Below, piece by piece: positions 737 through 24,445 of a stretch of 64,000 nt of DNA. Position 1 is the stretch's first letter. Each line of letters opens with the position of its first letter. A model generated the notes under the pieces. The model made no database searches. It saw only the letters and a program-made list of their open reading frames with translations, and was not told the DNA's origin. The position numbers and the translations under genes were made by a program. This DNA is from Pseudomonadota bacterium (lineage in GTDB: Bacteria > Pseudomonadota > Alphaproteobacteria > Caulobacterales > Aquidulcibacteraceae), in assembly GCA_020161405.1 (NCBI GenBank), contig JAIUOD010000001.1, positions 1 to 64,000 on the forward strand, in the 5' to 3' direction.

Positions 737-1279
737 ATGAGAGTTGAACTCAAGGCGATATCCAAATATGGAATAAACTTGGGGCTCCGTCATTGGGCCG
801 CAGAAGCCAATGATTATAGCGATTGTACTACTTGGGGCATGAAGGATAACCAAGCTTTGCTATTAAATGAACTTCGGCGGCAAATAGAACACCTTGAATT
901 AAAACTTACAATTGCTGAATATTCCAGCCAACATAAAGCACTAGTAATTCTAATAGAAGACAAAGCCTCGGGTAATCAATTAATTTACAACTAAAAGCAA
1001 GTAATATATCAAGGGTAAAAGGTTTCCAAGTCCGGCTAGAGCGGTAAAATAATGCACCTAGAAACAACGTAATTGTCATTTAAGAATTTCCACGACTAGA
1101 CCACATGGCTTGGGACTTATAGGAGCTAGCTAAATACCTTCCCTAGCTCCATATATGATAATCAGGTCGACAGTAATTCCCAATTCATCGAACTGATGAA
1201 ACCCAATGGCATAGAGCACTGTATAATCGGCTTTTACCACGGTCAAATCGAAGTTTTGTAACGGCGGAGTATGATCTGA
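737..1279 (+). pseudogene. Decayed second copy of the terminase nuclease domain
   Basis: The frame from 737 to 994 encodes a protein closely matching the terminase fragment just upstream: EANDYSDCTTWGMKDN against ETNDYSVCTTWGIKEN, and VILIEDKASGNQLI against VILIEDKASGTQLI. At about 990 the frame shifts by one base; the next frame continues the alignment with LKASNISRVKGFQ against LKADQLYGLKGFQ, then breaks at several stops. At 1187-1279, back in the first frame, similarity resumes with DNQVDSNSQFIEL and ends in RRSMI plus stop, matching the RRGMI end of the intact copy, with an in-frame TAA in place of a leucine-valine position. The start is uncertain because the N-terminal side is also eroded. 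I read it as a diverged tandem paralogue or neighbouring-prophage copy that has lost function. Confidence 0.85.
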
Positions 1280-1437: not shown

Positions 1438-2307
1438 TCATGGTGTGCTTTCTCCTGACACACCAACTTCAACGACTAGCAATTTCGCGCTGGGATTTGC
1501 CGCAATTTCTACAGGATTATGGCTAGAAGAAGTGCAAATAAATAAATGCCGGCGCTCTGGACCACCGAGCATTACCGCATAAGCATGGTTATCAAGCAGG
1601 ATAGTTTCAACTACTTCACCACCTTCGCGAACACGTAAAATTGATGGACTGCCAGCAGGATTGGCGACCCAAACTGCACCTTCTCCGTCAATGCATATAC
1701 CGTCGGGCTGCACTCCTTCGGGCAATTTTGCCCAGAGGCGTCGGTTTGAAAAAGTGCCATCAGCCGCTAGATCAAATGCCGTCAAGCGATAGCCATTTGT
1801 CTCAGCGACTATCAGCGTTTTACCGTCAGGCGAGATGACCATTCCATTGGGAAAACTCAGACTCTCGGCAACTTTGGTCACTATGCCGCCCGGATCAATT
1901 AGCGTTATGACGCAACTTTCGACAGGTTTCGCATCTGGAAGCCAGAAATTATAACCAATATCGCCGACATAAGTTTTCCCATCTGGCAAGACTATGGCAT
2001 CGCTGAGGCAGAAGACGCTAGTAGATGAAATATCGGCATAATCGTGTAGCACCGATCCGTCCCACCGTTTCATTCGAAGATGGAGCGCGTCGCTGAATAA
2101 TACGCTACCATCTTCCAAAAAGCCGAGTCCATTCGGTTTGAATGGCAAGGATATTTCGGTTTGCAAGTCGCCGTTTAGGCTTACTGACTTTACTGCGGAA
2201 TCATGGATATCGATAAACCATAGTCTATTATTATGCCACCGTGGGCTTTCAGCGAAGCGAAGTCCTTTGCCAAGCCCTATTAGTTGTACTAGTGTTCTTA
2301 CAGCCAT
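1438..2307 (-). CDS. SMP-30/gluconolactonase/LRE-family protein
   Basis: This 289-residue protein has the six-bladed propeller family pattern of SMP-30/gluconolactonases, metal-dependent lactone hydrolases. The N-terminal AESPRWHNNRLWFIDI block contains the expected glutamate ligand. FPNGMVISPDGK and QPDGICIDGEGAVWVANP carry the Asn and Asp ligands. There is no signal peptide, so a cytoplasmic location is likely. It is the last gene of a seven-gene minus-strand block, with 7 nt between it and the cyclase gene upstream. In that context a lactone intermediate formed during ring cleavage is a plausible substrate, but the sequence does not identify it. The stop is followed by an AT-rich 158-nt gap before the terminase remnant. 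Confidence 0.85.
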   Translation of the reverse strand: MAVRTLVQLIGLGKGLRFAESPRWHNNRLWFIDIHDSAVKSVSLNGDLQTEISLPFKPNGLGFLEDGSVLFSDALHLRMKRWDGSVLHDYADISSTSVFCLSDAIVLPDGKTYVGDIGYNFWLPDAKPVESCVITLIDPGGIVTKVAESLSFPNGMVISPDGKTLIVAETNGYRLTAFDLAADGTFSNRRLWAKLPEGVQPDGICIDGEGAVWVANPAGSPSILRVREGGEVVETILLDNHAYAVMLGGPERRHLFICTSSSHNPVEIAANPSAKLLVVEVGVSGESTP

Positions 2308-2314
2308 AATCTAA

Positions 2315-3127
2315 TCAATTCGGCACAAAGGCAACGACACGCGATGGGGCTGCGCTGCATTTTGCAAGTTTAATAGGAAAAAAGCCAACGTGGAATCCAG
2401 TGGGCGGCAGAACTGCTAAGTTACATAACTGTTGAACAATAAAGGCTTCGCGCTTGGTAATGGCCTTATGTCCATCCCACAATAGCGACTTATCACCTTT
2501 TGATTGCCAATTGGCGTTCATTAGGCGAAATGGCAAGTCCCAGCCAACTGCATCAGTGCCAAGAATTGTAGCCCCCATATTAGTCAAGTGAAGTGTCGAT
2601 TCTGCCGACATGCCAGGTTGGTTATAGAATTGAGGGTCATCCATTGTCCATGCTTCCTGTCCAGTTCGCAACAGTACCGCATCGCCAGGAGCAACTGCAC
2701 GACCAACAGCTTTAATGGCACGGTCAAGCATATCTGGCGTGATATATTCACCGCCTTTTGCCCAAGGCCGCAAATCTAGCACCATACCAGGACGGTAGAG
2801 TTCATTCAAATCGATTTCGTCAATAGTACGGGCTGGTTTGCCCTCACAAAGTGAGCCAGAATGCAAAGGTGCATCAACATGAGTTCCACAATGGGAATTG
2901 AAATCGTTTAAGTTCTCCGAGCCCCAACCTTCACCATCTGGTAGGTCGGAGTGTGTGCAACCAAGGCTCGCACAGAATTCGTCTTTTCCAGCTTGTTCGG
3001 CAGGGTTATTATATTCAATTCGGGGTGCCACTACTCCCGCAACATGCTGTAATGCAGGCGGCAATTTTTCGCGATTGGCGGGGTCCAGCAGAACTGTAAG
3101 GTCAATAAGGCGCAAGGAATTCTCCAA
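2315..3127 (-). CDS. Cyclase-family (kynurenine formamidase-like) metal hydrolase
   Basis: A 270-residue member of the cyclase/kynurenine formamidase fold family (PF04199). The signature HCGTHVDAPLH near residues 79-89 supplies metal-binding and catalytic His and Asp residues. A second conserved stretch, GDAVLLRTGQEAW, follows near residue 148. Members hydrolyse formamides, lactones or cyclic 1,3-diketone-type C-C bonds. No tryptophan pathway gene is nearby, so a role in opening or hydrolysing a ring intermediate is more likely than kynurenine metabolism. It abuts the thiolase gene (stop at 3128 next to this start at 3127) and lies 7 nt before the SMP-30 gene, so co-transcription is expected. 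Substrate unknown. Confidence 0.85.
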   Translation of the reverse strand: MENSLRLIDLTVLLDPANREKLPPALQHVAGVVAPRIEYNNPAEQAGKDEFCASLGCTHSDLPDGEGWGSENLNDFNSHCGTHVDAPLHSGSLCEGKPARTIDEIDLNELYRPGMVLDLRPWAKGGEYITPDMLDRAIKAVGRAVAPGDAVLLRTGQEAWTMDDPQFYNQPGMSAESTLHLTNMGATILGTDAVGWDLPFRLMNANWQSKGDKSLLWDGHKAITKREAFIVQQLCNLAVLPPTGFHVGFFPIKLAKCSAAPSRVVAFVPN

Positions 3128-4366
3128 TCATTTTGTTAGAATATGAATAGCTACAGCTGCTTCTTCGACGCCAATATTGCCGCCGCCGTTTTCCTGAATG
3201 GCGTGCTTAGCGCCTTCGACTTGGCGGGCGCCAGCTTCTCCGCGAAGCTGCGTCACAAGCTCATAAAGCTGGCCAATACCGGTCGCCCCAAGTGGATGTC
3301 CCTTTGATTCCAGACCACCGGAAGGGTTGACGGGAATTCTGCCACCTAGTGTAAAGTCCCCGCGCTCAGCTGCTGGGCCGCCTTGGCCCATTTCAACAAA
3401 ACCAAGATTTTCAACTTGGATTATTTCCCCCATAGCAGCTGCATCATGAACTTCAGCTACATGCATATCTTTTGGGCCAAGGCCCGCCATCTCATAGGCC
3501 TGATTGGCCGCTAATCGGGCAAGGTTTTGCTCATGCTGGTCAATGGTTCGGCTGGTTGCGGATCTTACAACGCTTGCGGCAACTTTTATGCATCGACTGC
3601 GATCCGCGCCAATTCGCTTAAGCCCTTCTTCTGTGCAAATAATAGCGGCAGCACTTCCATCAGTAACTGGCGCACACATAGGCAATGTTAATGGGTATGT
3701 TATAGGTGGCGCGCCAAGAACTTCATCGATTGTAAAAGGCTTGCGGAACTGTGACCAAGGGTTATGCACTGAATGTTGATGGTTTTTAGCCGATACCGCC
3801 GCAATCTGACGCTGTGTAGTTCCCCATTTTGCCATGTGATTGCGGCATAGCGCTGCATATATAGACATGAAACGGCTATAAGGCTTCACAGATTCCGAAC
3901 CTTCAGGTGCGCATATTCCTTCGCCTAGCTTCACAAGGCGAGCATAGTTTTCATCCGCCCGGCTAACGTCCCAACCAGCCTCCATTAGTTTTAAAACCGA
4001 GAGTTTGTCTTCGACATTCATCTTTTCAGCACCCAATGCCAGCGCAACATCGGTTGTTCCTGCCTTGAGGCTCTGCACCGCAAGCGCAAATGCCGAACTA
4101 CCTGCGGCACAGCCATTGTCGACGTTATAGATTGGGATCCCATCAATACCAATCTTTCCCAAAATAATCTGACCCGGAATTGCATATTGACCTTGCAAAG
4201 GACCGTTAGTAATTCCTGCATAAAATGCCGTACCAATGTCTTTAGCTTTGCAACCAGAATCTTTCAAAGCCCCTCCAAGAGCTTCGCGCGCCAAGTCTTC
4301 GAGACTTCTTTCAAAATGGCGACCGAAAACGGTCATAGAAATTCCCGCTATATATATATCACTCAT
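3128..4366 (-). CDS. Thiolase-family protein (SCP-x/lipid-transfer type)
   Basis: A 412-residue thiolase. The nucleophile cysteine is in VDNGCAAGSSAFALA (around residue 84), and the C-terminal histidine motif is GGLESKGHPLGATGIGQ. The family's second C-terminal cysteine is replaced by the glycine-rich ENGGGNIGVEEA, as in SCP-x/lipid-transfer type thiolases rather than classical acetyl-CoA acetyltransferases. Such enzymes cleave beta-ketoacyl-CoA, often of bulky or branched (sterol-side-chain-like) substrates. Many work with a small DUF35 OB-fold partner; none is encoded here. The gene sits 11 nt after the acyl-CoA ligase and directly before the cyclase gene. Together with the ligase it argues for CoA-dependent chain or ring degradation, although dehydrogenase and hydratase genes are absent from this block. 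Confidence 0.87.
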   Translation of the reverse strand: MSDIYIAGISMTVFGRHFERSLEDLAREALGGALKDSGCKAKDIGTAFYAGITNGPLQGQYAIPGQIILGKIGIDGIPIYNVDNGCAAGSSAFALAVQSLKAGTTDVALALGAEKMNVEDKLSVLKLMEAGWDVSRADENYARLVKLGEGICAPEGSESVKPYSRFMSIYAALCRNHMAKWGTTQRQIAAVSAKNHQHSVHNPWSQFRKPFTIDEVLGAPPITYPLTLPMCAPVTDGSAAAIICTEEGLKRIGADRSRCIKVAASVVRSATSRTIDQHEQNLARLAANQAYEMAGLGPKDMHVAEVHDAAAMGEIIQVENLGFVEMGQGGPAAERGDFTLGGRIPVNPSGGLESKGHPLGATGIGQLYELVTQLRGEAGARQVEGAKHAIQENGGGNIGVEEAAVAIHILTK

Positions 4367-4377
4367 ATTTTATTCTT

Positions 4378-5934
4378 TCATATCTTATTGGTGTGGCTAC
4401 GCCAATAGGTTTCTCGCAATTGTTTTTTGAGTACTTTGCCAGCCGGACTACGCGGCAATTGTTCGATAAAATCAACGCTCTTTGGAGCCATAACACTGCC
4501 TAGTTGTTCTTTGCACAGTGCAATAATTTCTTCGGCGCCGACACTTTGGCCTGGGTTAAATTCAACCACTGCTTTAACTGCCTCACCCCATTTTGGATCT
4601 GGCACACCGATTACTGCACAATCGCGCACCGCAGGGTGCCCCCAAATTATCTGTTCGACTTTTGCGGGATACACATTAAAGCCGCCTGTGATTATCATGT
4701 CTTTTTTACGGTCCGTCAGATGCAAATATCCACTAGCATCTATATGGCCGATATCGCCAGTATGAAGCCACCCATCGATAATAGTCTGAGCCGTCACCTC
4801 TGGAGCATTGTAATAACCATTCATAATAAGGTCTCCGCGAACGCAAATTTCTCCGGTTTCACCACGGGCTAGAATTTGGTTTTTTTCATCCATGATTTCC
4901 ACACGAACTAATGGATTAGGACGGCCTACTGAGGATAATCGCTCATCACTTGCTAGATTACTGCCATCTATATGTTCATCAGGGCGCAAGCTGGAAATTG
5001 TCCCCATTGCCTCACTTTGGCCGTAGCCACCACAAAGAATTGGCCCCCAAAGCGCAATTGCTTTCTTTAGTTTTTCCACCGACATTGGCGCCGCACCATA
5101 AAAAAGATAACGCACGCTCGAAAAATCAATCTTCTCAATCCCAGGCGCATCAAGTAGTGCATAAATGATAGTTGGTGGCAAGAAAAATTCGGTCACACGG
5201 TGCTTTACGATAGACTTCACTAATAATGCTGGGTCGGGCTTTGTTAGCACTACCACCGTGCCTCCCTGCGCTGTGCATGGTAAAGACAGAAGCCCCGCAG
5301 TATGCGTCATCGGCGCAGCTGCAAGATTAATTGGCTTGGTGCCATCACGATAAGCCAACACAATAAGAAGATGGGCAATGCTAATATTAATTGCTCGGTG
5401 CGTATTCATAACTCCTTTTGGCGCCCCCGTAGTGCCACCAGTTGGCATTATTACAAACACGTCATCAAGGTCAGTCACAACATCAGGTTTTGTCTCTGGT
5501 TCATCACTGCACCATTTTGAAAGCAGCGGCGCATCAGACAAATCCGCATCGATGCACACCCAATGTTTCACTTTGAGAAGAGAGGGACGCAATGCAGCTA
5601 TGGTTTCTGCAAAAGATTGTTGAAAGAACAAAATTTCGCAATCAAAATTGTCTAGGATTAAGCGGTTATCTTCAACCGCATTACGTGGGTTTACCGGTAT
5701 CCATGTCATATTAGCGCGCCACAAACCTAGTGTGCAGCTCCAGCCAATCACATCGTTGGCGGACCATATTGCACCTTTGGTTCCCTTTTCAAAACCCAAC
5801 GAAAGCATCTTATTTGCAATACGGCACGAAAGAGCTCCAATTTCATCAAAAGTATAGGCTCGGTCTTCTTGTAAATAGGCAGTCTCCGCACCGCCCATAT
5901 CCCAACCTCTGTCAAAGAAATCGATAATTGCCAT
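4378..5934 (-). CDS. AMP-dependent acyl-CoA synthetase/ligase
   Basis: A 518-residue adenylate-forming enzyme of the acyl-CoA ligase type, activating a carboxylic acid with ATP and CoA. All core motifs are present in order: A3 P-loop IMPTGGTTGAPKG near residue 162, A5 GGYGQSEAMG near residue 300, A7 GWLHTGDIGHIDASG, A8 DRKKDMIITGGFNVYP and the A10 lysine in PRSPAGKVLKK near the C-terminus. Length and order are normal for medium/long-chain or aromatic acyl ligases. No signal peptide is seen. It lies between the MBL hydrolase (12 nt) and the thiolase (11 nt) in the same minus-strand block. A carboxylate released by the exported hydrolase is a reasonable but unproven substrate. Confidence 0.92.
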   Translation of the reverse strand: MAIIDFFDRGWDMGGAETAYLQEDRAYTFDEIGALSCRIANKMLSLGFEKGTKGAIWSANDVIGWSCTLGLWRANMTWIPVNPRNAVEDNRLILDNFDCEILFFQQSFAETIAALRPSLLKVKHWVCIDADLSDAPLLSKWCSDEPETKPDVVTDLDDVFVIMPTGGTTGAPKGVMNTHRAINISIAHLLIVLAYRDGTKPINLAAAPMTHTAGLLSLPCTAQGGTVVVLTKPDPALLVKSIVKHRVTEFFLPPTIIYALLDAPGIEKIDFSSVRYLFYGAAPMSVEKLKKAIALWGPILCGGYGQSEAMGTISSLRPDEHIDGSNLASDERLSSVGRPNPLVRVEIMDEKNQILARGETGEICVRGDLIMNGYYNAPEVTAQTIIDGWLHTGDIGHIDASGYLHLTDRKKDMIITGGFNVYPAKVEQIIWGHPAVRDCAVIGVPDPKWGEAVKAVVEFNPGQSVGAEEIIALCKEQLGSVMAPKSVDFIEQLPRSPAGKVLKKQLRETYWRSHTNKI

Positions 5935-5946
5935 TGCTAAGTCTCC

Positions 5947-6945
5947 TCAATATCGACCAAAATCATGTGCAAACACGACCGGCCCTTTCCATGTTTGTGC
6001 CAACTCGCCTTGCGCCGCCTTCATCCTGTCTGGAGTAATGCCTATATGAGTAAAAATTATACGTTTTACTCCCGCTTCTTGTGCCAAACGTCCAGCCTCC
6101 CTTGGACTTAGATGGTGCTGTGCGAAATGCAAACGCGCAGCCTCAAAAAATGCCTGCGGTGCTTTTGGTCTGCTAGTACGAATAGCTGCGACTGCCGCAT
6201 CAATGTCAAGAATTGATGAAACTAAGACATCTGCACCACGAGCAATTGCGATTACTGCTTCGCTCGGCCCAGTGTCGCCGGTAAATACTACGCTGCGTCC
6301 TGGCAATTCGAACCTTAATGAAAGTGACTGATCAATTTCCGGATTTAGAACTTGCCCCTGCTTAACATAGTGTGTGTTTGCAACGGCGCGCACCATTATG
6401 TCTTCAATTTTAAATTCAGAACCATCGCCAATTTCTACAACCCTGACGCTATCAGAGGGAATACGCACGGGAGCGCCAGGTAATGCAGGGCTGGTCCTTT
6501 TCAATGGTTCCATAGCTGCAAGAAGGCCATTGACCATAATTTCTGTCCCACGCGGACCGTAAATGGTAATTGGCGGATCCATCAATTGATAGCGCCTAGA
6601 AAGCAAAGCAAACAGCCCACCAACATGATCTGCGTGGATATGAGTTATAACTACATTTTTTAGTGGAACAGAATCGATTCCCGCCCGTGCCATCTGTTCG
6701 ATTGTGCCGTCGCCTACATCAACCAATATAATGCCACCAGACCAGCGCAGCATTGTTGCAGGCTGGCCGCGCAATGGGTTCGCCATCGGCCCCGCCATAG
6801 TGCCTAGTGTTATAATTTCGGATTGGGGCGTTTTAGCTTGGGCAGTGCCAATTCCGCAAACTCCGCAAATAATGGCGAAGGCAAGCATAATCGCCATTAC
6901 GGCTCCTCCCGCTACACCCCATTTAAACACTCGTTTACTGCGCAT
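5947..6945 (-). CDS. Exported metallo-beta-lactamase-fold hydrolase
   Basis: A 332-residue MBL-fold protein. The zinc motif HxHxDH appears as ITHIHADHVGG near residue 100, with later ligands in NTHY (about residue 193), FTGDTGPSE (about residue 222) and a C-terminal FTHIG. The N-terminus is basic then strongly hydrophobic (residues 12-32) ending in GTAQA, a good Sec signal peptide with cleavage near 37-38, so the enzyme should act in the periplasm. The domain resembles the RNase Z/arylsulfatase-like branch of the fold, which includes esterases and lactonases. It is 2 nt from the TonB receptor gene and 12 nt from the ligase, suggesting it processes what the receptor imports before CoA activation. 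Confidence 0.85.
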   Translation of the reverse strand: MRSKRVFKWGVAGGAVMAIMLAFAIICGVCGIGTAQAKTPQSEIITLGTMAGPMANPLRGQPATMLRWSGGIILVDVGDGTIEQMARAGIDSVPLKNVVITHIHADHVGGLFALLSRRYQLMDPPITIYGPRGTEIMVNGLLAAMEPLKRTSPALPGAPVRIPSDSVRVVEIGDGSEFKIEDIMVRAVANTHYVKQGQVLNPEIDQSLSLRFELPGRSVVFTGDTGPSEAVIAIARGADVLVSSILDIDAAVAAIRTSRPKAPQAFFEAARLHFAQHHLSPREAGRLAQEAGVKRIIFTHIGITPDRMKAAQGELAQTWKGPVVFAHDFGRY

Positions 6946-6947
6946 TC

Positions 6948-9368
6948 TTAAAAACCAACCCTAGCTGTTATACCGACTTGGCGCGGTGCACCAAGGTAGT
7001 TCTGATAGCCTGAAGTTGTTCCAAAGAAGCTTAATACGCCAGATTGTTGGACGATTGTTTTATTTGATAGGTTACTTGCCCATAATGACAAGTCGAGGCC
7101 TTTATTGAAGCGCATACCTAAACGAACATTTAAGATAGCATAAGCCCCCTGAACGTGGCGAGGGTCAAGGCTTGCGCTGTTTACATTACTCTTGCTTTGC
7201 CAATTAAGGTCTGTGCGCGCGTAAAGCTCGCCCATTGGCATGCTATGATCATATTGCAAAGCGCCGGTAAAACGTAATTTTGGCGAGAGCGGCAATTGGA
7301 AACCGGACAAATCGCAGCTTGTGAAAACTCCTGCCCCGTTTGCATTGGCATCTGGCGCGCGGCCAAACCAGCATGCTCCGCCTTTATAGGAACCATATTC
7401 GGCGTCGATATAGGCCGCCCCAAGATTCATTTTCAGGCCTTTGCCAAGTTTAAAGGTCCCCTCAGCTTCGGCACCCTTAACTTTTACGCTTTCCGCATTA
7501 TTGACTAGATATTGAAGGCCGACAAAGCCTGCATTTTGATAATTGGAATAATCTGAAAGGAACAGGCTTAGCGCAATTCGTGCGCGGCGATTTGCAAGAT
7601 CAAACTTGCTCCCCAATTCCCAATGGTCTACTGTTTCAGCACCAAATAGGCGAGTTGAGGGAATTGCGCTGCCAAATCCAATATTGTATCCACCCGATTT
7701 CGTTCCCTTTGCATAAGTCGCGTAAAATAATGTGTCAGGATATGGCGTAACGTTTGCAGTCAAGTTCCAAGTGACGTCATCATCCTTAATTGTAGGAAGC
7801 GCTCCATTTATTGGCACCCCAGCAGGGATAGTTACAGACGGCACCAAACTCGCGGTCAATATGTTGACCCCAGCTAGCGGGTGGCCTGCGGGTAAATTCG
7901 GGTTAGGAGTGAAAGTTGCCCTATTATTTATTGACGCGTTCTTAGTTTCAGCCTGCCAACGTAAGCCACCGGAAAGAGAAAGGCGTTCACTCAACTTATA
8001 TGTTGAATTGCCAAAGATGGCAAAGTATTTTGAACTTGAACGGGAATCTTGATATCCTTTGTCCCCTGGTTGTCCTTGCACGACTTGTAACGGTAAGGTT
8101 GGCGAAAGCGGAAAAAGAGCAGCCGCAGGCTGAATCTCAAACATCGCAGTTCGGCCACGGTCACCGCGTTCGAATTTTGTGTCAAGATAATAGCCACCAA
8201 TCAACCATTGAACATTTCTGTCCGATGGAGAAACCAGACGCAATTCTTGCGATATGCTTTTGCCAGCTTGCGTATCTCTGAAGGTAATTAAGGGAAGTGC
8301 CACTTGATCTATATCTGTGGCCAGCAATTCACTTTTATATTTCGACCACCCTGTAATTGAAGTCAAAGTTGCAAACCCAAGCTCGCTTGTAAGCGTTCCA
8401 GAAATCATGTCAGTACTACTATTCGAGCGATTTGGATCAGTTGTGCATATTACCCTGTTAGTTGGATTGTTATCAGGACATGCAATTACGCCGAACTTGG
8501 CATTAAGAGCGGCATTATTGTCGAGCACAAAACTAGTTTCAGGTGCAACGCCACGCGTCCAATCGGGATTTGTGCCATTGCTATCTAGCACTTCACTACG
8601 CGCTGCGGTTAGATTGAAGGTAGTCTTATCAGTAATGTCAAATTCAATTTGTCCACGCACAGCATATCGCTTCATCTCATTTGCTTGTTCAACGGCTGCT
8701 AGGTTGCGATAGCTGGGTTCCGCATCATAATAAACACCAGTTAAACGAGCGCGAATTCCTTCAGAAATTGGACCAGTAACAGAACCAGCCAGGCGAGCCG
8801 CCATTGCGTTACGGCCACCTTCAATTTGCGAAAGAGATGCCTCTAAACTTGCGCCAAATATGTTCGATGGCCTTTTTGAAAAGACACTAATAACGCCAGC
8901 GGTGGCGTTTTTACCATAAAGTGTTGACTGCGGCCCCTTAAGAACCTCTACCCTTTGAAGGTCAACCAAGTCATCGACGCCTAGCCCACTACGCGCCATA
9001 TAAACTCCGTCAATGAATAGAGCAACGCTTGGTTCAAAGGTAGGGATATTGGGGTCCGTACCAAGGCCACGAATACGATAACTCTGAGCTAAAGGCTGGT
9101 TATTTGACACTAGAGCCAAGGATGGCACCAAAGCGGCAACGCCAGCAACACCAGTTGCACCCGCATCTCGTAATGTTGAAGCACTAACAGCGGAAATAGA
9201 CATTGGAACCCGCTGCAATGCCTGTTCACGCTTCTGAGCAGTGACAATAACTACTTCTACCTCATGTGAATTAGCAGGCGCTTGCTGCGCGATTGCAGAA
9301 GTTGTTAACAATACTGTTGCGATTGAAATACCGCTCGTACTTACTAGTCTAAATTTACGCTTTTCCAT
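6948..9368 (-). CDS. TonB-dependent outer-membrane receptor
   Basis: An 806-residue receptor from the chosen ATG at 9368. That ATG has a GGGAG ribosome site 8 nt upstream; an upstream TTG at 9374 is less likely. A signal peptide ends near TTSAIAQ. It is followed by a TonB box-like VEVVIVTAQKR, the plug domain with RIRGLGTDP, FIDGVY and VEVLKGPQSTLYGKNATAG, and a long beta-barrel ending in the aromatic-terminated ARVGF. The pattern matches the sphingomonad/caulobacter-type receptors that import organic nutrients as well as siderophores. No siderophore gene is near; the flanking genes are catabolic, so a carbon substrate is likelier. It is transcribed with the downstream MBL gene (2 nt gap) and follows the tetR gene on the same strand. 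Confidence 0.92.
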   Translation of the reverse strand: MEKRKFRLVSTSGISIATVLLTTSAIAQQAPANSHEVEVVIVTAQKREQALQRVPMSISAVSASTLRDAGATGVAGVAALVPSLALVSNNQPLAQSYRIRGLGTDPNIPTFEPSVALFIDGVYMARSGLGVDDLVDLQRVEVLKGPQSTLYGKNATAGVISVFSKRPSNIFGASLEASLSQIEGGRNAMAARLAGSVTGPISEGIRARLTGVYYDAEPSYRNLAAVEQANEMKRYAVRGQIEFDITDKTTFNLTAARSEVLDSNGTNPDWTRGVAPETSFVLDNNAALNAKFGVIACPDNNPTNRVICTTDPNRSNSSTDMISGTLTSELGFATLTSITGWSKYKSELLATDIDQVALPLITFRDTQAGKSISQELRLVSPSDRNVQWLIGGYYLDTKFERGDRGRTAMFEIQPAAALFPLSPTLPLQVVQGQPGDKGYQDSRSSSKYFAIFGNSTYKLSERLSLSGGLRWQAETKNASINNRATFTPNPNLPAGHPLAGVNILTASLVPSVTIPAGVPINGALPTIKDDDVTWNLTANVTPYPDTLFYATYAKGTKSGGYNIGFGSAIPSTRLFGAETVDHWELGSKFDLANRRARIALSLFLSDYSNYQNAGFVGLQYLVNNAESVKVKGAEAEGTFKLGKGLKMNLGAAYIDAEYGSYKGGACWFGRAPDANANGAGVFTSCDLSGFQLPLSPKLRFTGALQYDHSMPMGELYARTDLNWQSKSNVNSASLDPRHVQGAYAILNVRLGMRFNKGLDLSLWASNLSNKTIVQQSGVLSFFGTTSGYQNYLGAPRQVGITARVGF

Positions 9369-9386
9369 AGGCAATACTCCCTCGCT

Positions 9387-9403
9387 CTCGCTGATTCAGC
9401 GAG
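9387..9403. promoter_or_regulatory. 17-bp palindrome before the TonB receptor gene, candidate TetR operator
   Basis: Perfect 8-bp arms CTCGCTGA and TCAGCGAG surround one central T. It lies 19 nt upstream of the receptor ATG, between tetR and the receptor gene. Size and symmetry fit a TetR-family operator. The centre is GATTC, a GANTC site of the kind methylated by CcrM in many alphaproteobacteria. Binding is inferred; it could instead act as a hairpin in the mRNA. Confidence 0.5.
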
Positions 9404-9442
9404 CTAATTTAACTATTTATTTGTTATTTTCTCTGAGCTACC

Positions 9443-10090
9443 TCATTCGCCTGATCCTTCAGGCTTAGTGAGGTCAAGCAGCACTAGGCGTGTAACCGAT
9501 ATTAGCATTGCCCTAAAATCAGCCCGCGTTAACCGCTTGTTTTCGAGTTTTTGTTCGGCGTGCACGCCAACCATCATTGCTAAAATCGAAGATGCAGCAA
9601 TATAAGCACGACGCTCCGTAGCGCCTGTTTCACTAACCAACTCGTTTGAAATCAACTGACGCAAATGCTCGTGAAAATCAGCATAGACCGGACGAATTGT
9701 TGAATTGTCACTAAATTCGACCAACATCCGAGCAAATAAATCCGCGGTTGCCGAATTATCGAAAGCCCGGTCCAGTCTTTGTATAAAATCAATAGTGCCG
9801 GAATTTTCTGAAAGTATCAAATTTGCTTTAGAACGAGCCAAACCCTCTTCCAGGCAAGCTTCGAGTAAACCCAATTTGGTTTTGAAATGAAAAAAAACTG
9901 TGGCTTGACCATATCCTGCCTGCTCAGCAATCTCTTCAGTTTTTGCATTGGCAAAACCATACTTACCAAATACCAAAGTAGCCGAATCGATAATCTTGCG
10001 CCGCGCAAGCATGGAATTTTTAGAAACGCCTCTAACACGGGCTTTTGAAGGCTGTTTCTCTGTAGTTTCAAGGTTGCTAACTATTTTCAT
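9443..10090 (-). CDS. TetR/AcrR-family transcriptional regulator
   Basis: A 215-residue regulator. The N-terminal helix-turn-helix spans about residues 30-75: ARRKIIDSATLVFGKYGF, then TEEIAEQAGYGQATVFFHF, the typical TetR DNA-binding helix with the conserved aromatic-His-Phe end. The C-terminal half is variable, as expected for a ligand pocket. The gene is first in the minus-strand catabolic block and in the same direction as the receptor gene 74 nt downstream. Palindromes lie both upstream of tetR (10127-10156) and before the receptor gene (9387-9403), so autoregulation and control of the block by a pathway compound or its CoA ester are likely. The ligand cannot be read from sequence. Confidence 0.9.
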   Translation of the reverse strand: MKIVSNLETTEKQPSKARVRGVSKNSMLARRKIIDSATLVFGKYGFANAKTEEIAEQAGYGQATVFFHFKTKLGLLEACLEEGLARSKANLILSENSGTIDFIQRLDRAFDNSATADLFARMLVEFSDNSTIRPVYADFHEHLRQLISNELVSETGATERRAYIAASSILAMMVGVHAEQKLENKRLTRADFRAMLISVTRLVLLDLTKPEGSGE

Positions 10091-10126: not shown

Positions 10127-10156
10127 AACTTAATTGATTCATGGCTCAATTAAGTT
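10127..10156. promoter_or_regulatory. 30-bp inverted repeat upstream of tetR, candidate autoregulatory operator
   Basis: Perfect 11-bp arms AACTTAATTGA (10127-10137) and TCAATTAAGTT (10146-10156) are separated by 8 nt. It lies 36 nt upstream of the tetR start codon, where a promoter-overlapping operator would be expected. The left arm runs into TGATTCA, the same heptamer as the centre of the palindrome before the receptor gene. Function is inferred from position and symmetry. Confidence 0.55.
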
Positions 10157-10808: not shown

Positions 10809-12698
10809 TTAAGCCGCATTTGCGCTTGGGAGGGTGATTTTTACTTCGGCGCCTTGGTTTTTGCCTTGGCTTGAAAGTTTAATTTTGCCGCCTAATGAAT
10901 TTACAGTATTTGCGCACCAATGAAGGCCAAGGCCACCAGATTTGAAATCACGTGTTGAGAAACCGCGTTTAAACAAATTATCTAAATCGTATTTTTCAAT
11001 GCCATCGCCATTATCTTTAATTGATATTTCAACCATATCGCCATTTTCATCATTCACTGGGCTGATTTTTATATCTATTAAACCATTATCATTATGAGAT
11101 GTCGCAATAGCTTCGACAGCATTTGTGATTAAATTATCAAACAATTGCCCCATAATTATGCGATTGGCTTTTACGAAATATTGCGCATCCTTATCAAAAT
11201 TAATTGCCATAGGAATTTCATTGTGGCGCGCAATACTTAGTGCATTGTCAACAACATTAGAAATATTGCAACTTTCACCAAAATTTGTATTGGCGCTTTT
11301 ATTCTGCCCATTTGATATTGCCTGCACAATCATATCTAAATTTTCTTGTGCTTTACGGATTAAATGTTTGGCCTCTTCGGTCTTATCATCACTGGCATTT
11401 AAATAAGATTCCAAATATTGGAAAAGCTTTTTACGCCTTGTTTCATCAATATCATTGTTCTTTAGTTCACTTATTGCACGATAAACATTAGGCTGTATTA
11501 CTTCAATTTTATCGACAATTTTGCTAGTGATAACCCTAAAAGGGCTTAATGTATTTTTGACATTATGCATTAGGTCAATTTGGTTTTGAACTTTGCCTAA
11601 TTGATAAGATTCACGTTCTAATTCTGATTGAAGGGTGTTTAACCGACCAATCATACTATCAAACGCCTTAGCAAGTGCGCCAATTTCATCATTCCTGTCT
11701 TTGATACCTATTTTACGCATTTCACCATCTAATGAAATTTCGCGTAAATGGTTTACAATTTTATCAATCGGAAAAATAACAATTGATTGTATCTTTGAAT
11801 ACAAAAATAATACACCCGCAATCATCAAAAGCGATGTACCAAGGGCAATTGTCCACCAAAGTGACATTTTCACACTATTCAAACTTCTTGGATAGGAAGT
11901 TGTAAGGCGACCAATCGTAATATTATCAATACCCTTTATCGCCACACTTGTATAAACTACATCAGGTGTATAGTGAAATTTGAAATTTTCTTTTTGACGC
12001 ATCAAGTCGATTGTAGTTGGAAAATGAAGGCTATTTTGAATATCTTCGGCCGTGATTTTTTCTATAACAACCATATAACCGTGAACGGGCCCTTTTTTCT
12101 TACTTGTAAGAATTTGCGCGGCGCTAAATGAATATAATTCATTTTTTATTCTTATAAAGCCCTGAAAATTTGGGGTTTTTCGAATTTGCGATTTCATTTT
12201 CTCTGAAAGCATTAATTCTTTTAATTCATTGGTTTTATCTTGATTTAATTTCTGTGTTTCTTTGTCATAAACATAAGTTGTGATGCGATTATTTTCGAGG
12301 TTTGCAACCCCAATCCCACTTAGGCCAAAGTCATTAATAGGTTCAAAGCTGTAGTTTTTATCAGCAAAGACTTCGCCAAATTCTGTTGCATATTTATAGG
12401 TCTCATCCCAAATTGACCAATCAAGGCTTTTGTCTTTCACAACAGTTTTCACATCATCCAAATAAGATTGTAATTGCGAAGCGTGATGATTTAATTGTTC
12501 ATTTTCAAGGCGATCAAGGCGTGCGTAAACTGTGGTCTTAACGAATAATACCAACATAACAAACCCGCAAAAGCCCCCAATTAACAAAGCAAGGCTTAGC
12601 TTTTCGCCAATTTGTAAATTATCATAATAATCGATTTTATTTTTTAAAATAAATCTTCTAATCGCTTTTTTTATGGACAAATTAACTTGCCTTTGCAT
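10809..12698 (-). CDS. CHASE4-HAMP sensor histidine kinase
   Basis: A 629-residue membrane sensor kinase. TM1 is near residues 35-57. It is followed by an extracytoplasmic domain containing DWSIWDETYKYATE, a CHASE4 hallmark. TM2 lies near 282-303, then HAMP (IDKIVNHLREIS, NDEIGALAKAFDSMIGRL) and a catalytic ATPase domain with NLITNAVEAI (N box), IKDNGDGIE (G1) and GGLGLHWCANTV (G2). The phosphoacceptor region is unusual: instead of HExRTP it reads LMHNVKNTLSPF near residue 372, with the His as candidate acceptor. The gene overlaps the end of the upstream response-regulator gene by 17 nt, implying translational coupling. The kinase most likely phosphorylates that regulator and so controls its diguanylate cyclase/phosphodiesterase module. 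Confidence 0.88.
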   Translation of the reverse strand: MQRQVNLSIKKAIRRFILKNKIDYYDNLQIGEKLSLALLIGGFCGFVMLVLFVKTTVYARLDRLENEQLNHHASQLQSYLDDVKTVVKDKSLDWSIWDETYKYATEFGEVFADKNYSFEPINDFGLSGIGVANLENNRITTYVYDKETQKLNQDKTNELKELMLSEKMKSQIRKTPNFQGFIRIKNELYSFSAAQILTSKKKGPVHGYMVVIEKITAEDIQNSLHFPTTIDLMRQKENFKFHYTPDVVYTSVAIKGIDNITIGRLTTSYPRSLNSVKMSLWWTIALGTSLLMIAGVLFLYSKIQSIVIFPIDKIVNHLREISLDGEMRKIGIKDRNDEIGALAKAFDSMIGRLNTLQSELERESYQLGKVQNQIDLMHNVKNTLSPFRVITSKIVDKIEVIQPNVYRAISELKNNDIDETRRKKLFQYLESYLNASDDKTEEAKHLIRKAQENLDMIVQAISNGQNKSANTNFGESCNISNVVDNALSIARHNEIPMAINFDKDAQYFVKANRIIMGQLFDNLITNAVEAIATSHNDNGLIDIKISPVNDENGDMVEISIKDNGDGIEKYDLDNLFKRGFSTRDFKSGGLGLHWCANTVNSLGGKIKLSSQGKNQGAEVKITLPSANAA

Positions 12699-14529
12699 TA
12701 GTAGCTGTGGCTATTTCATTCATTTTATCAAGAACCATTAAAGAAGCATCATGTGCACTTATAGCAGGCCCAAATAAATATCCCTGAAGATGCGAACATC
12801 CAAGCAAGCGCAAGGCTTGGCATTGCATTTCATTTTCAACACCTTCGGCAACAATGTTTATACCAAGGCGTTTTGCAAGATTTGTAAGCGAATGAACAAT
12901 TGCATCTGAATGTTTTTCAATGCCAATTTTATCAACAAAACTTTTATCTATTTTGATACAATCAAGGTCAAAATTCTTAACGCTAACAAGGCTTGAATAG
13001 CCTGTACCAAAATCGTCAAGTGCGATTTTAAACCCTAAATCATGAAGCTTGCGAAGTAGTTTTTGGGCATTCTCAATATTATCGAAAATCGCGGTTTCGG
13101 TAACCTCAATTTGAATTCTATCAAAACTTACGCCGGCGGAATTTGCTTCTTCACAGAGGAATTCAACGAAATTTGGCCGTCTAAATTGCTTTGGTGAGAA
13201 ATTAATTGACACATAATGATTAGGCCAATTTTTACAATCATTAATCGCGTTTTTAATTACCCAATCACCAATATCATAAATTAATTCTGAATCCTCAATG
13301 ATTGGAATGAATATTCCCGGTGATATAGGGCCAAATTCTTTACTATTCCAGCGAAGAAGCGCCTCGAAACCAACAATTTCCAATTCATCACGGTCAACAA
13401 TAGGTTGATAGAAGTTTGCAATTTCACCTGATTTAATCGCACTTTCAACGCTCGAAATAACCATTCGGCGAAACTTCGTACTCTCGTCTAGTTTTTCATC
13501 AAAAATTGCATATTGATTACGGCCATTATTTTTAGCAAAATTAAGCGCGGTATCAGCCATACGCATTTTTTCAATAGGCTCTAAGTCACAACAAGATTTG
13601 CAAACAAATAAACCAATAGATGCGCTTACTTGAATATCTTTATCAAGAATTTTTATAGGGCGCTTTATAATACTTAATAATTTTTCGCAATTTTGGCGCG
13701 CTTTTTCTTCGCCACAATCATGAAAAATAAGACCAAATTCATCAGAACCTAGGCGCGCAATAAATGTATTTGGTGGCATTTGTGTTGTGATTTCATTGTA
13801 AATTTTCTTTATCAAATCATCACCAGTAATATGACCAAATGCATCATTCACCAATTTGAATTTATCAACATCCAAGATTGCAAGCGAAAAATTATTTGTA
13901 TTTTCTTGGCTTCTAATCGATAGTTCACGCATGAAATACATACGATTTGGTGCGCCAGTTAAAAAATCGTGATTTGCAATTTGCGTTGCCCTTGCTTCAC
14001 TTTCAGCAAGCTCCAAAACTTTTTGTTGTAAGGCTTTGATTTGTAACGCATCATATTCCCAGCGTGAAACTAATGCATTTGCCAGTTGTGAAATTTCTTC
14101 ACTTGAAAAGGGTTTTGGCACAAAAAATAATTTATGCGCGGGCCCTGCCTCTGATAAAATTTCACCTATATGTTTATCAGCATAAGCAGAAACAATTACA
14201 ATATTCACATCAGGATCAATCTTGCGAATACGCATTGCCGTTTCTTTGCCATCAATGCCTGGTGGCATTCTATAATCAACGAAAACTATTTGGAAAGGCT
14301 GCCCATTATCTTTGGCTTGCTTTACTAGTGCAACACCCTCTTCGCCTTGAAAGGCATAAGAAAGATTTGCGCGAGGTAATAGCGAAATTACATCATCACT
14401 TACGTTTTCACCAAATAAATCTTCCTCAAGACTTTGCACCAGCTTCATTTTTTGATTGTCAGACTTGGCAAAAATATGCCCATAAGCCTCATGAAGTGAT
14501 TGTTCGTCATCTATAATTAGAATATTCAT
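12682..14529 (-). CDS. Response regulator with GGDEF and EAL domains (c-di-GMP turnover)
   Basis: A 615-residue protein. The receiver domain spans residues 1-150, with acidic pocket IIDDEQ, phosphoacceptor Asp85 in VFVDYRMP and Lys139 in VPKPF. A GGDEF domain (about 185-345) has the signature RLGSDEF, a one-residue change from GGDEF, and a normal HDFLTGAPNR start. The EAL domain (about 365-610) keeps the catalytic set: GFEALLRW, SINFS, IEVTETAI, LDDFGTGYSS, KIDKSF, AEGVE and QGYLFG. It is therefore predicted to be an active phosphodiesterase; cyclase activity with GSDEF is uncertain and that domain may be regulatory. The downstream gene overlaps by 17 nt and encodes the probable cognate kinase. 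A divergent kinase gene starts 308 nt upstream. Confidence 0.92.
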   Translation of the reverse strand: MNILIIDDEQSLHEAYGHIFAKSDNQKMKLVQSLEEDLFGENVSDDVISLLPRANLSYAFQGEEGVALVKQAKDNGQPFQIVFVDYRMPPGIDGKETAMRIRKIDPDVNIVIVSAYADKHIGEILSEAGPAHKLFFVPKPFSSEEISQLANALVSRWEYDALQIKALQQKVLELAESEARATQIANHDFLTGAPNRMYFMRELSIRSQENTNNFSLAILDVDKFKLVNDAFGHITGDDLIKKIYNEITTQMPPNTFIARLGSDEFGLIFHDCGEEKARQNCEKLLSIIKRPIKILDKDIQVSASIGLFVCKSCCDLEPIEKMRMADTALNFAKNNGRNQYAIFDEKLDESTKFRRMVISSVESAIKSGEIANFYQPIVDRDELEIVGFEALLRWNSKEFGPISPGIFIPIIEDSELIYDIGDWVIKNAINDCKNWPNHYVSINFSPKQFRRPNFVEFLCEEANSAGVSFDRIQIEVTETAIFDNIENAQKLLRKLHDLGFKIALDDFGTGYSSLVSVKNFDLDCIKIDKSFVDKIGIEKHSDAIVHSLTNLAKRLGINIVAEGVENEMQCQALRLLGCSHLQGYLFGPAISAHDASLMVLDKMNEIATATNAKAS

Positions 14530-23549: not shown

Positions 23550-24445
23550 TATTCACCTAAAAAACAACATGATTTGGCCCAAATCTTTTGACCATTTTGC
23601 TTGTAAAGTGAATTGATTTTATCAGATGCAATTTTTGATAATTCTAAACTTTCATAAAGCGCAAAACATGTTGCGCCCGAGCCTGACATTCGCACCAATG
23701 ACGCATTAGTTTCATTTTCAAGGAATGAAAGAAGCTCACCAATTTGTGGGCAAGTTTTTATCGCAGCTTTTGTTAAATCATTTGATTGCGATTTTAGCAT
23801 TGCAATCAAATTTTCAAAACCTTTGCAATCATTATATTCAAAGCCAAAATTTTGGCTAAACTCACCTAATTCATCAAAAGTCTTGTAAACTAAAGGGGTT
23901 GAACATTCCAAAAGTGGATTAACCAAAATTGCATTTATATTACGTGGTAAAATTGGTGCAGGCATTAATTCATCGCCAATACCCCGCATAATTGTTGGCT
24001 TCTTTTTTATACAAACCCCAATATCAGCGCCAATTTTATTGCCAATATTTATTAATTCATCAATAGATAGGCCCAATTGCCATATTTCATTAAGTGCAAT
24101 TAAACTTGCGGCGCAATCAGAGGAACCACCGCCAATTCCCGATGCAATCGGAAGGTTTTTATAAAGCGTGACCTTTATTTTTTTATCAGATTTACAATAT
24201 TGATTAAGCGCATTTATCGCTTTGAAAATTAAGTTTTTGGAAACATCATGACCAATTAATTCAGTCGCAAATTCACCCTTTATTTCGATTGAATTTTCAT
24301 CTTCCAACTCAAAAAATAACTCATCGCCAAAATCAGCGAAAACCACCAATGAATCAAGATTATGATAATCCTTAAAGCGCCCATCCTTAATTGGGGCACT
24401 AACGCCAAGGCTTAGATTTATTTTAGCAGGTGCAAGAATTCGCAT
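23549..24445 (-). CDS. ispE: 4-diphosphocytidyl-2-C-methyl-D-erythritol kinase
   Basis: A 298-residue GHMP kinase of the MEP isoprenoid pathway, phosphorylating CDP-ME at the 2-hydroxyl. It has the N-terminal PAKINLSLGV, the ATP-binding PIASGIGGGSSDCAASL near residue 100 and the C-terminal SLVRMSGSGATCFALY. Length is normal. It sits in the middle of a tightly packed operon (1-nt overlaps with the TPR gene upstream and the WecA-like gene downstream), so it is probably translationally coupled to both. Confidence 0.93.
   Translation of the reverse strand: MRILAPAKINLSLGVSAPIKDGRFKDYHNLDSLVVFADFGDELFFELEDENSIEIKGEFATELIGHDVSKNLIFKAINALNQYCKSDKKIKVTLYKNLPIASGIGGGSSDCAASLIALNEIWQLGLSIDELINIGNKIGADIGVCIKKKPTIMRGIGDELMPAPILPRNINAILVNPLLECSTPLVYKTFDELGEFSQNFGFEYNDCKGFENLIAMLKSQSNDLTKAAIKTCPQIGELLSFLENETNASLVRMSGSGATCFALYESLELSKIASDKINSLYKQNGQKIWAKSCCFLGE

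Follow-up and report, generated by a model that had tools for sequence, protein, structure and literature searches.

It has been established that hydrolysis by an enzyme of the cyclase family can break a C-C bond in a cyclic 1,3-diketone (PMC10470551). In the anaerobic phloroglucinol cluster of Clostridium scatologenes, a cyclase-family manganese hydrolase opens the cyclic 1,3-diketone and the resulting keto acid is taken down to acetyl units (PMC10470551). The locus described here, a block of seven genes in an analysed stretch of 64,000 nucleotides (the window), can be likened to that cluster by description: the cluster unites phloroglucinol reductase (PGR), DPGC, a dehydrogenase and a BKACE lyase, of which our block has a cyclase-family gene and no other, with a ligase and a thiolase instead. 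The sphingomonad Rhizorhabdus wittichii MPO218 degrades ibuprofen by the ipf pathway, whose thiolase is encoded by ipfDE on a plasmid (PMC9195938). Unlike the ipf cluster, with which the comparison is also one of descriptions, our block contains no dioxygenase. The ipf thiolase is reportedly of the SCP-x type and paired with a CoA ligase, and the pathway is said to need a ring dioxygenase.

Three Streptomyces plasmids (L057, L082 and L083) carry an uncharacterised cyclase-FAH-thiolase-ligase set, in which the cyclase is 57% and the thiolase 48% identical to the window proteins. As in the window, the ligase is adjacent, a TetR gene lies alongside and oxidising genes are not adjacent. The differences are an FAH gene instead of the SMP-30 and metallo-beta-lactamase (MBL) genes, the lack of a TonB system, another gene order and a ligase that is only 34% identical; with the ligase and the thiolase this far apart, the two sets may serve different pathways. 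The Embleya cyclase is found with FAH, ligase, MBL, TetR and a Liv-type transporter and there is no thiolase within 10 kb; that of genome G495 has no partner gene beside it.

The ligase-thiolase pair is adjacent, and in the same order as in the window, in about 25 Burkholderiales loci (L020-L043), with about 66% (ligase) and 76% (thiolase) identity. In the annotated examples (L058 and L059), genes for an acyl-CoA dehydrogenase and for a DUF5938 oxidoreductase precede the pair, and the operon differs from ours by these oxidoreductases and by having no TonB receptor, MBL, cyclase or SMP-30 gene. Ligase and thiolase form a unit of old standing. The Burkholderiales pair is uncharacterised, sometimes occurs twice per genome and possibly belongs to another catabolic route. 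On a MAG contig labelled Rhodoferax (L019), the pair is accompanied by an SMP-30 gene (6294-7154, 55% identical) about 5 kb off, in a different arrangement.

For the receptor, the comparable systems are catabolic plasmid clusters of the sphingomonads Croceicoccus (L089) and Sphingomonas aliaeris (L086), where a TonB receptor lies beside an exported MBL protein about 43% identical to ours and beside further hydrolases, including an FAH hydrolase in one of the two. They differ in their LysR control, in their sugar or glycoside enzymes and in having no cyclase or thiolase.

Organization of the block

The features are collected in Table 1. Seven intact open reading frames without internal stops, each assigned to a Pfam family, follow one another on the minus strand in the order tetR-tbdR-mbl-acs-thl-cyc-sgl. 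A preliminary description of this DNA had proposed seven genes of these families on a single strand, with gaps of 0-12 nt in the enzyme part; the coordinates and Pfam scores agree with each of these points. From SGL through cyclase, thiolase, ligase and MBL to the receptor, the gaps are 7, 0, 11, 12 and 2 nt, and 68 nt separate the receptor gene from tetR.

Table 1. Coordinates of the operon and flanking features in the window
Feature	Position	Strand	Evidence
Terminase large subunit (phage-type), C-terminal part, island cargo at contig end	48..620	+	PF17289, TIGR01630
Second terminase copy, decayed, several in-frame stops	800..1276	+	tblastn 48% identity over 164 aa to the 48-620 copy
SMP-30/gluconolactonase-like hydrolase	1438..2307	-	PF08450 (SGL) 134.7 bits; 71% to L017
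Cyclase-family metal hydrolase (isatin hydrolase/kynurenine formamidase-like)	2315..3127	-	PF04199 98.1 bits; 90% to L017
SCP2-type thiolase	3128..4366	-	PF22691 (Thiolase_C_1 125 bits)/PF00108; 6hsj SCP2-thiolase E 3.6e-67; 90% to L017
Acyl-CoA ligase (AMP-forming)	4378..5934	-	PF00501 222.8 bits, PF13193 71.2 bits; 77% to L017, about 66% to Burkholderiales
MBL-fold hydrolase, S4 arylsulfatase-like, predicted N-terminal export signal	5947..6945	-	PF12706 (Lactamase_B_2) 76.6 bits
TonB-dependent outer-membrane receptor	6948..9374	-	PF00593 barrel 110 bits, PF07715 Plug 67.7 bits; 73% to L017
TetR-family regulator (first operon gene)	9443..10090	-	PF00440 (TetR_N) 47.3 bits; 67% to L017
Predicted TetR operator AACTTAATTGA-N8-TCAATTAAGTT	10127..10156		37-66 nt upstream of tetR start; perfect 11-nt arms
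Sensor kinase gene, first chromosomal gene right of island	10809..12698	-	synteny with sister genome G200

Conservation and predicted operator

GTDB contigs were scanned with the thiolase as query and 36 loci were fetched. All seven genes were found in the same order, strand and spacing in L017, a contig of a MAG labelled Sphingomonadales (cluster G+C 64%), so that the search for the gene order in other genomes, suggested in the preliminary description, ends with the same seven-gene order in a distant genome. Protein identities between the window and L017 are 67-90% and dN is 0.07-0.25, with stops absent; synonymous sites are saturated, so dS has no numerical estimate. In L018, a further copy, the four distal genes are present at 74-92% identity. 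At this identity and on a contig of 4.7 kb, we doubt its label, Flavobacteriaceae; like L017, it is a short contig from a MAG. The association of cyclase and thiolase extends over the window, L017, L018 and the three Streptomyces plasmids.

A block of 39 nt around the palindrome of Table 1 is identical at 34 of 39 positions to the same position upstream of the L017 tetR, while 60 shuffled pairs of upstream regions gave at most 23 identical positions. In its own genome, the palindrome has 0 mismatches at this site (2 on the other strand), and the sole other match has 3 mismatches. Without a second good copy in the genome, the regulator is probably local. TetR would bind at this conserved, essentially unique site. 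The same genes in the same order in distant L017, together with the conserved and nearly unique palindrome, mark the block as a selected, dedicated operon; from the sequence comparison, the block is under purifying selection as one unit. No paper on this set of genes came up in a search of the literature. Each of the sub-modules is familiar, and the combination appears new to us.

Receptor and enzymes

The receptor has no relatives on plasmids at E 1e-60. For the MBL protein, the nearest solved structure is 8gyg, a Pseudoalteromonas arylsulfatase (phmmer E 1.5e-57, 292-aa alignment), which we take to be of the S4 type; it is also rank 1 in Foldseek (TM 0.76, 36% identity). The motif HIHADH fits HxHxDH and is kept in L017. 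This motif and the full-length similarity, seen in pairwise alignment and in fold, are the marks of AtsA-type proteins; the protein fits the S4 arylsulfatase family and may be a sulfatase. With an enzyme of this type closest among the solved structures, sulfate esters or other esters are likelier targets than a lactone. The exported MBL hydrolase and periplasmic hydrolysis proposed earlier stand as far as a hydrolase with a predicted export signal is concerned. According to a survey, the S4 family is a neighbour of RNase Z, its natural substrates are unknown and its members were assayed with an artificial substrate only (PMC5066984).

The thiolase has the nucleophilic Cys (NGCAAGSS) and the His of the GHP motif (SKGHPLGATG) in the window and in 14 relatives. 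The second catalytic Cys, that of HDCF, is absent: the motif is HDAA in the window and HDAA-, HDAS- or HDAT-like across the clade. The benzoylsuccinyl-CoA thiolase BbsB, with HDAF, likewise lacks this Cys.

In the cyclase, the metal motif HxGTHxDxPxH is complete (HCGTHVDAPLH in the window, L017, L057 and L081; variant HCSTHVDAPYH in L064) and is common to the Streptomyces, Embleya and G495 relatives. For its gene, the TTG at 3115, which has GGAGA upstream and matches the ATG of the L017 homologue, is the likelier start codon. The solved relatives are isatin hydrolases of low similarity, and a structure predicted from three sequences (pLDDT 41) was too poor for a fold search. The clade is rare: at E 1e-60, it was found in the own genome and one other among 385 genomes of the class, and no further genome was added among 398 of the phylum. 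Viral contigs contained no relatives. By analogy, retro-Claisen C-C cleavage by this enzyme is possible. At L064:9503-10480, another member of the clade (about 56% identical) stands alone, with neither a thiolase nor a ligase gene near it.

The SMP-30 protein matches PF08450 over 245 of 246 positions and its nearest solved structure is 7plb, an SMP-30 (E 1.6e-17); the metal-binding Glu, Asn and Asp were read by eye only. Judging from these matches, it is an ordinary relative of the SGL-fold lactonases.

Proposed pathway and alternatives

We read the block as a substrate-induced, mostly hydrolytic catabolic operon for uptake, periplasmic de-esterification, ring opening, CoA ligation and thiolysis, carried on a tRNA-Ala island, and give this reading a probability of roughly 0.55. 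The operon would probably import one specific compound and degrade it into ordinary metabolic building blocks. Seated on the palindrome, TetR would keep the operon silent until it binds the substrate or the CoA ester of the substrate. Import of the scarce compound would fall to the TonB receptor, and in the periplasm the exported MBL enzyme would cleave off a sulfate or another ester. Hydrolytic ring opening may then be the task of the cytoplasmic SMP-30 and cyclase-family enzymes, by lactone hydrolysis and/or by a retro-Claisen reaction on a cyclic 1,3-dicarbonyl; the cyclase step is modelled on the cyclase-family dihydrophloroglucinol cyclohydrolase, and the order of these two steps is guesswork. 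The ligase would then load the keto acid on CoA, and the thiolase would cut the CoA ester into acetyl-CoA (or propionyl-CoA) and a shorter acyl-CoA for central metabolism. We infer this chemistry throughout. The Embleya and G495 neighbourhoods, and the acyl-CoA dehydrogenase genes next to the Burkholderiales pairs, count against this reading. The earlier proposal of a catabolic operon on one strand, with TetR control and TonB uptake, is supported; its views of the hydrolysis step and of the adjoining phage DNA are revised.

Oxidising steps had been described as missing, and none is indeed found in the block, but their absence need not be a gap: in the Streptomyces relative, too, no such genes are adjacent, and the host has such enzymes elsewhere. 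A polyketide-like substrate, with its beta positions already oxidised, would make dehydrogenase genes needless. A wider proposal, which we hold to be doubtful, is that natural products with a cyclic beta-dicarbonyl or a lactone, possibly supplied as sulfate esters, are degraded by a redox-neutral route of cyclase opening, CoA ligation and thiolysis; it would have the same cyclase-thiolase core in Actinobacteria and Alphaproteobacteria, and mobile islands would spread it. Should the operon reading hold, this is a new catabolic operon with its own operator, which can be cloned in one piece and whose substrate can be found by screening. It would also give functions to a rare cyclase clade common to sphingomonads and Streptomyces, and would connect exported MBL enzymes of the S4 type with a natural substrate, where the survey cited above has an artificial one only.

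Elsewhere in the host genome there are six acyl-CoA dehydrogenase and six crotonase loci, and the operon could be a peripheral funnel that takes in an aromatic, terpenoid or fatty-acid-like substrate: it would itself perform uptake, de-esterification, CoA activation and the final thiolysis, with chromosomal beta-oxidation enzymes dehydrogenating and hydrating between ligase and thiolase. The closest ligase-thiolase pairs (Burkholderiales, Azoarcus and a P. aeruginosa plasmid) do adjoin acyl-CoA dehydrogenase and DUF5938 genes. However, the pair in the window and L017 has hydrolases in place of these oxidising neighbours, and the Streptomyces set is likewise without them. As the oxidising enzymes are available in trans, this explanation is nearly as good as that of a polyketide-like or cyclic beta-dicarbonyl substrate, and we regard it as possible, if only tentatively. 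An unlikely explanation is the inactivation of a signal or toxin, in which the hydrolases would break an antibiotic or a lactone or amide signal (e.g. an N-acyl-homoserine lactone) and the ligase and thiolase would recycle the 3-oxo acid. A 3-oxoacyl chain would suit the thiolase, lactonases and amidases are found among proteins with the MBL, SMP-30 and cyclase folds, and TetR scores, weakly, with ScbR-type autoregulator receptors. On the other hand, the MBL protein aligns best to the arylsulfatase and RNase Z families while the AidB lactonase is marginal (25.6 of 360 bits), and N-acyl-homoserine lactones usually need no TonB import.

Steroid degraders carry an SCP-x-like thiolase and an acyl-CoA ligase together with TonB uptake, and a side-chain module for steroids or bile acids could thus look similar. 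We consider it very improbable here. The ligase reaches 219 bits in the steroid-24-oyl-CoA synthetase model, whose cut-off is 750 bits, and dehydrogenases are absent from the operon. The steroid aldolases Ltp2 and Sal are marked by a YDHF or YDCY motif, the loss of the nucleophilic Cys and a DUF35 partner (PMC12329534). In contrast, our thiolase has HDAA at this motif and keeps the Cys, and DUF35 has no match among the seven proteins of the operon; a thiolase without the HDCF Cys in an operon without the DUF35 hydratase partner argues against a steroid side-chain system. The steroid and terpenoid substrates guessed at in the preliminary description have found no specific support.

Genomic island and base composition

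The thiolase is absent from the four other species of the genus (0 of 4), and the scattering of the genes in close relatives, named earlier as what would speak against a catabolic island, was not found. Synteny with the sister genome G200 resumes at window position 10810 (L070 3821), with 83% nucleotide identity over 7.0 kb. G200 keeps the sensor kinase and its partner gene, and a tRNA-Ala(GGC) 300 nt from the kinase takes the place of the operon, i.e. the site is empty. Base 1 of the window is the end of contig C5, and the neighbourhood on that side was therefore sought on contig C6. The tRNA-Ala of the own genome is on C6, where homology to G200 stops just past the tRNA 3' end, to resume at window position 10810. 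After the tRNA, C6 carries Avs2, caspase-like, Aga-type nuclease and McrBC-like pair genes and a serine recombinase (L080:3948-5504), followed up to the contig end by DUF2924/DUF3489, a DNA methylase and DUF5681; the Avs2-type gene (L080:11783-16360) is split in two ORFs of 319 and 1167 aa. The simplest reading is that the operon lies on one tRNA-Ala island of about 28 kb or more, from the tRNA-Ala to the kinase, with the C6-C5 join taken from synteny. Insertion at a tRNA 3' end and an empty site in a relative are both seen, and the recombinase with its DUF2924 and DUF3489 neighbours is tied to the operon by synteny only. By synteny, the catabolic cargo would thus share its tRNA island with Avs2, McrBC-like and caspase-like defence genes. 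The empty site in the sister species, together with order, operator and frames conserved in a distant genome, supports horizontal acquisition.

The G+C values sampled in the preliminary description are correct (58.3% at 3241-3300 and 36.7% at 24301-24360). Over the whole block G+C is 47.2%, compared to 39.4% for 10091-64000, and the other stretches of 8,653 nt in the window (91 tested) reach at most 44.0%. The excess falls partly on codon positions 1 and 2. At the third position, G+C is 0.38-0.41 in the cluster genes (0.40 overall), near the mean of 0.32 in 21 other genes and far from the 0.73-0.83 of L017; the genes have therefore long resided at low G+C. The idea of recent phage cargo was set aside on the same values. 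That the block borders phage DNA holds for the terminase frame and its decayed copy (Table 1), but the island itself is, by synteny, an integrative tRNA-Ala island rather than phage DNA.

The L017 operon adjoins a tyrosine integrase gene, and an AbiEi gene lies about 3 kb downstream. The sensor kinase right of the island forms a sensor kinase/response-regulator GGDEF-EAL pair (10809-14529); of the genus's four other species, just one was found to have the second gene of this pair.
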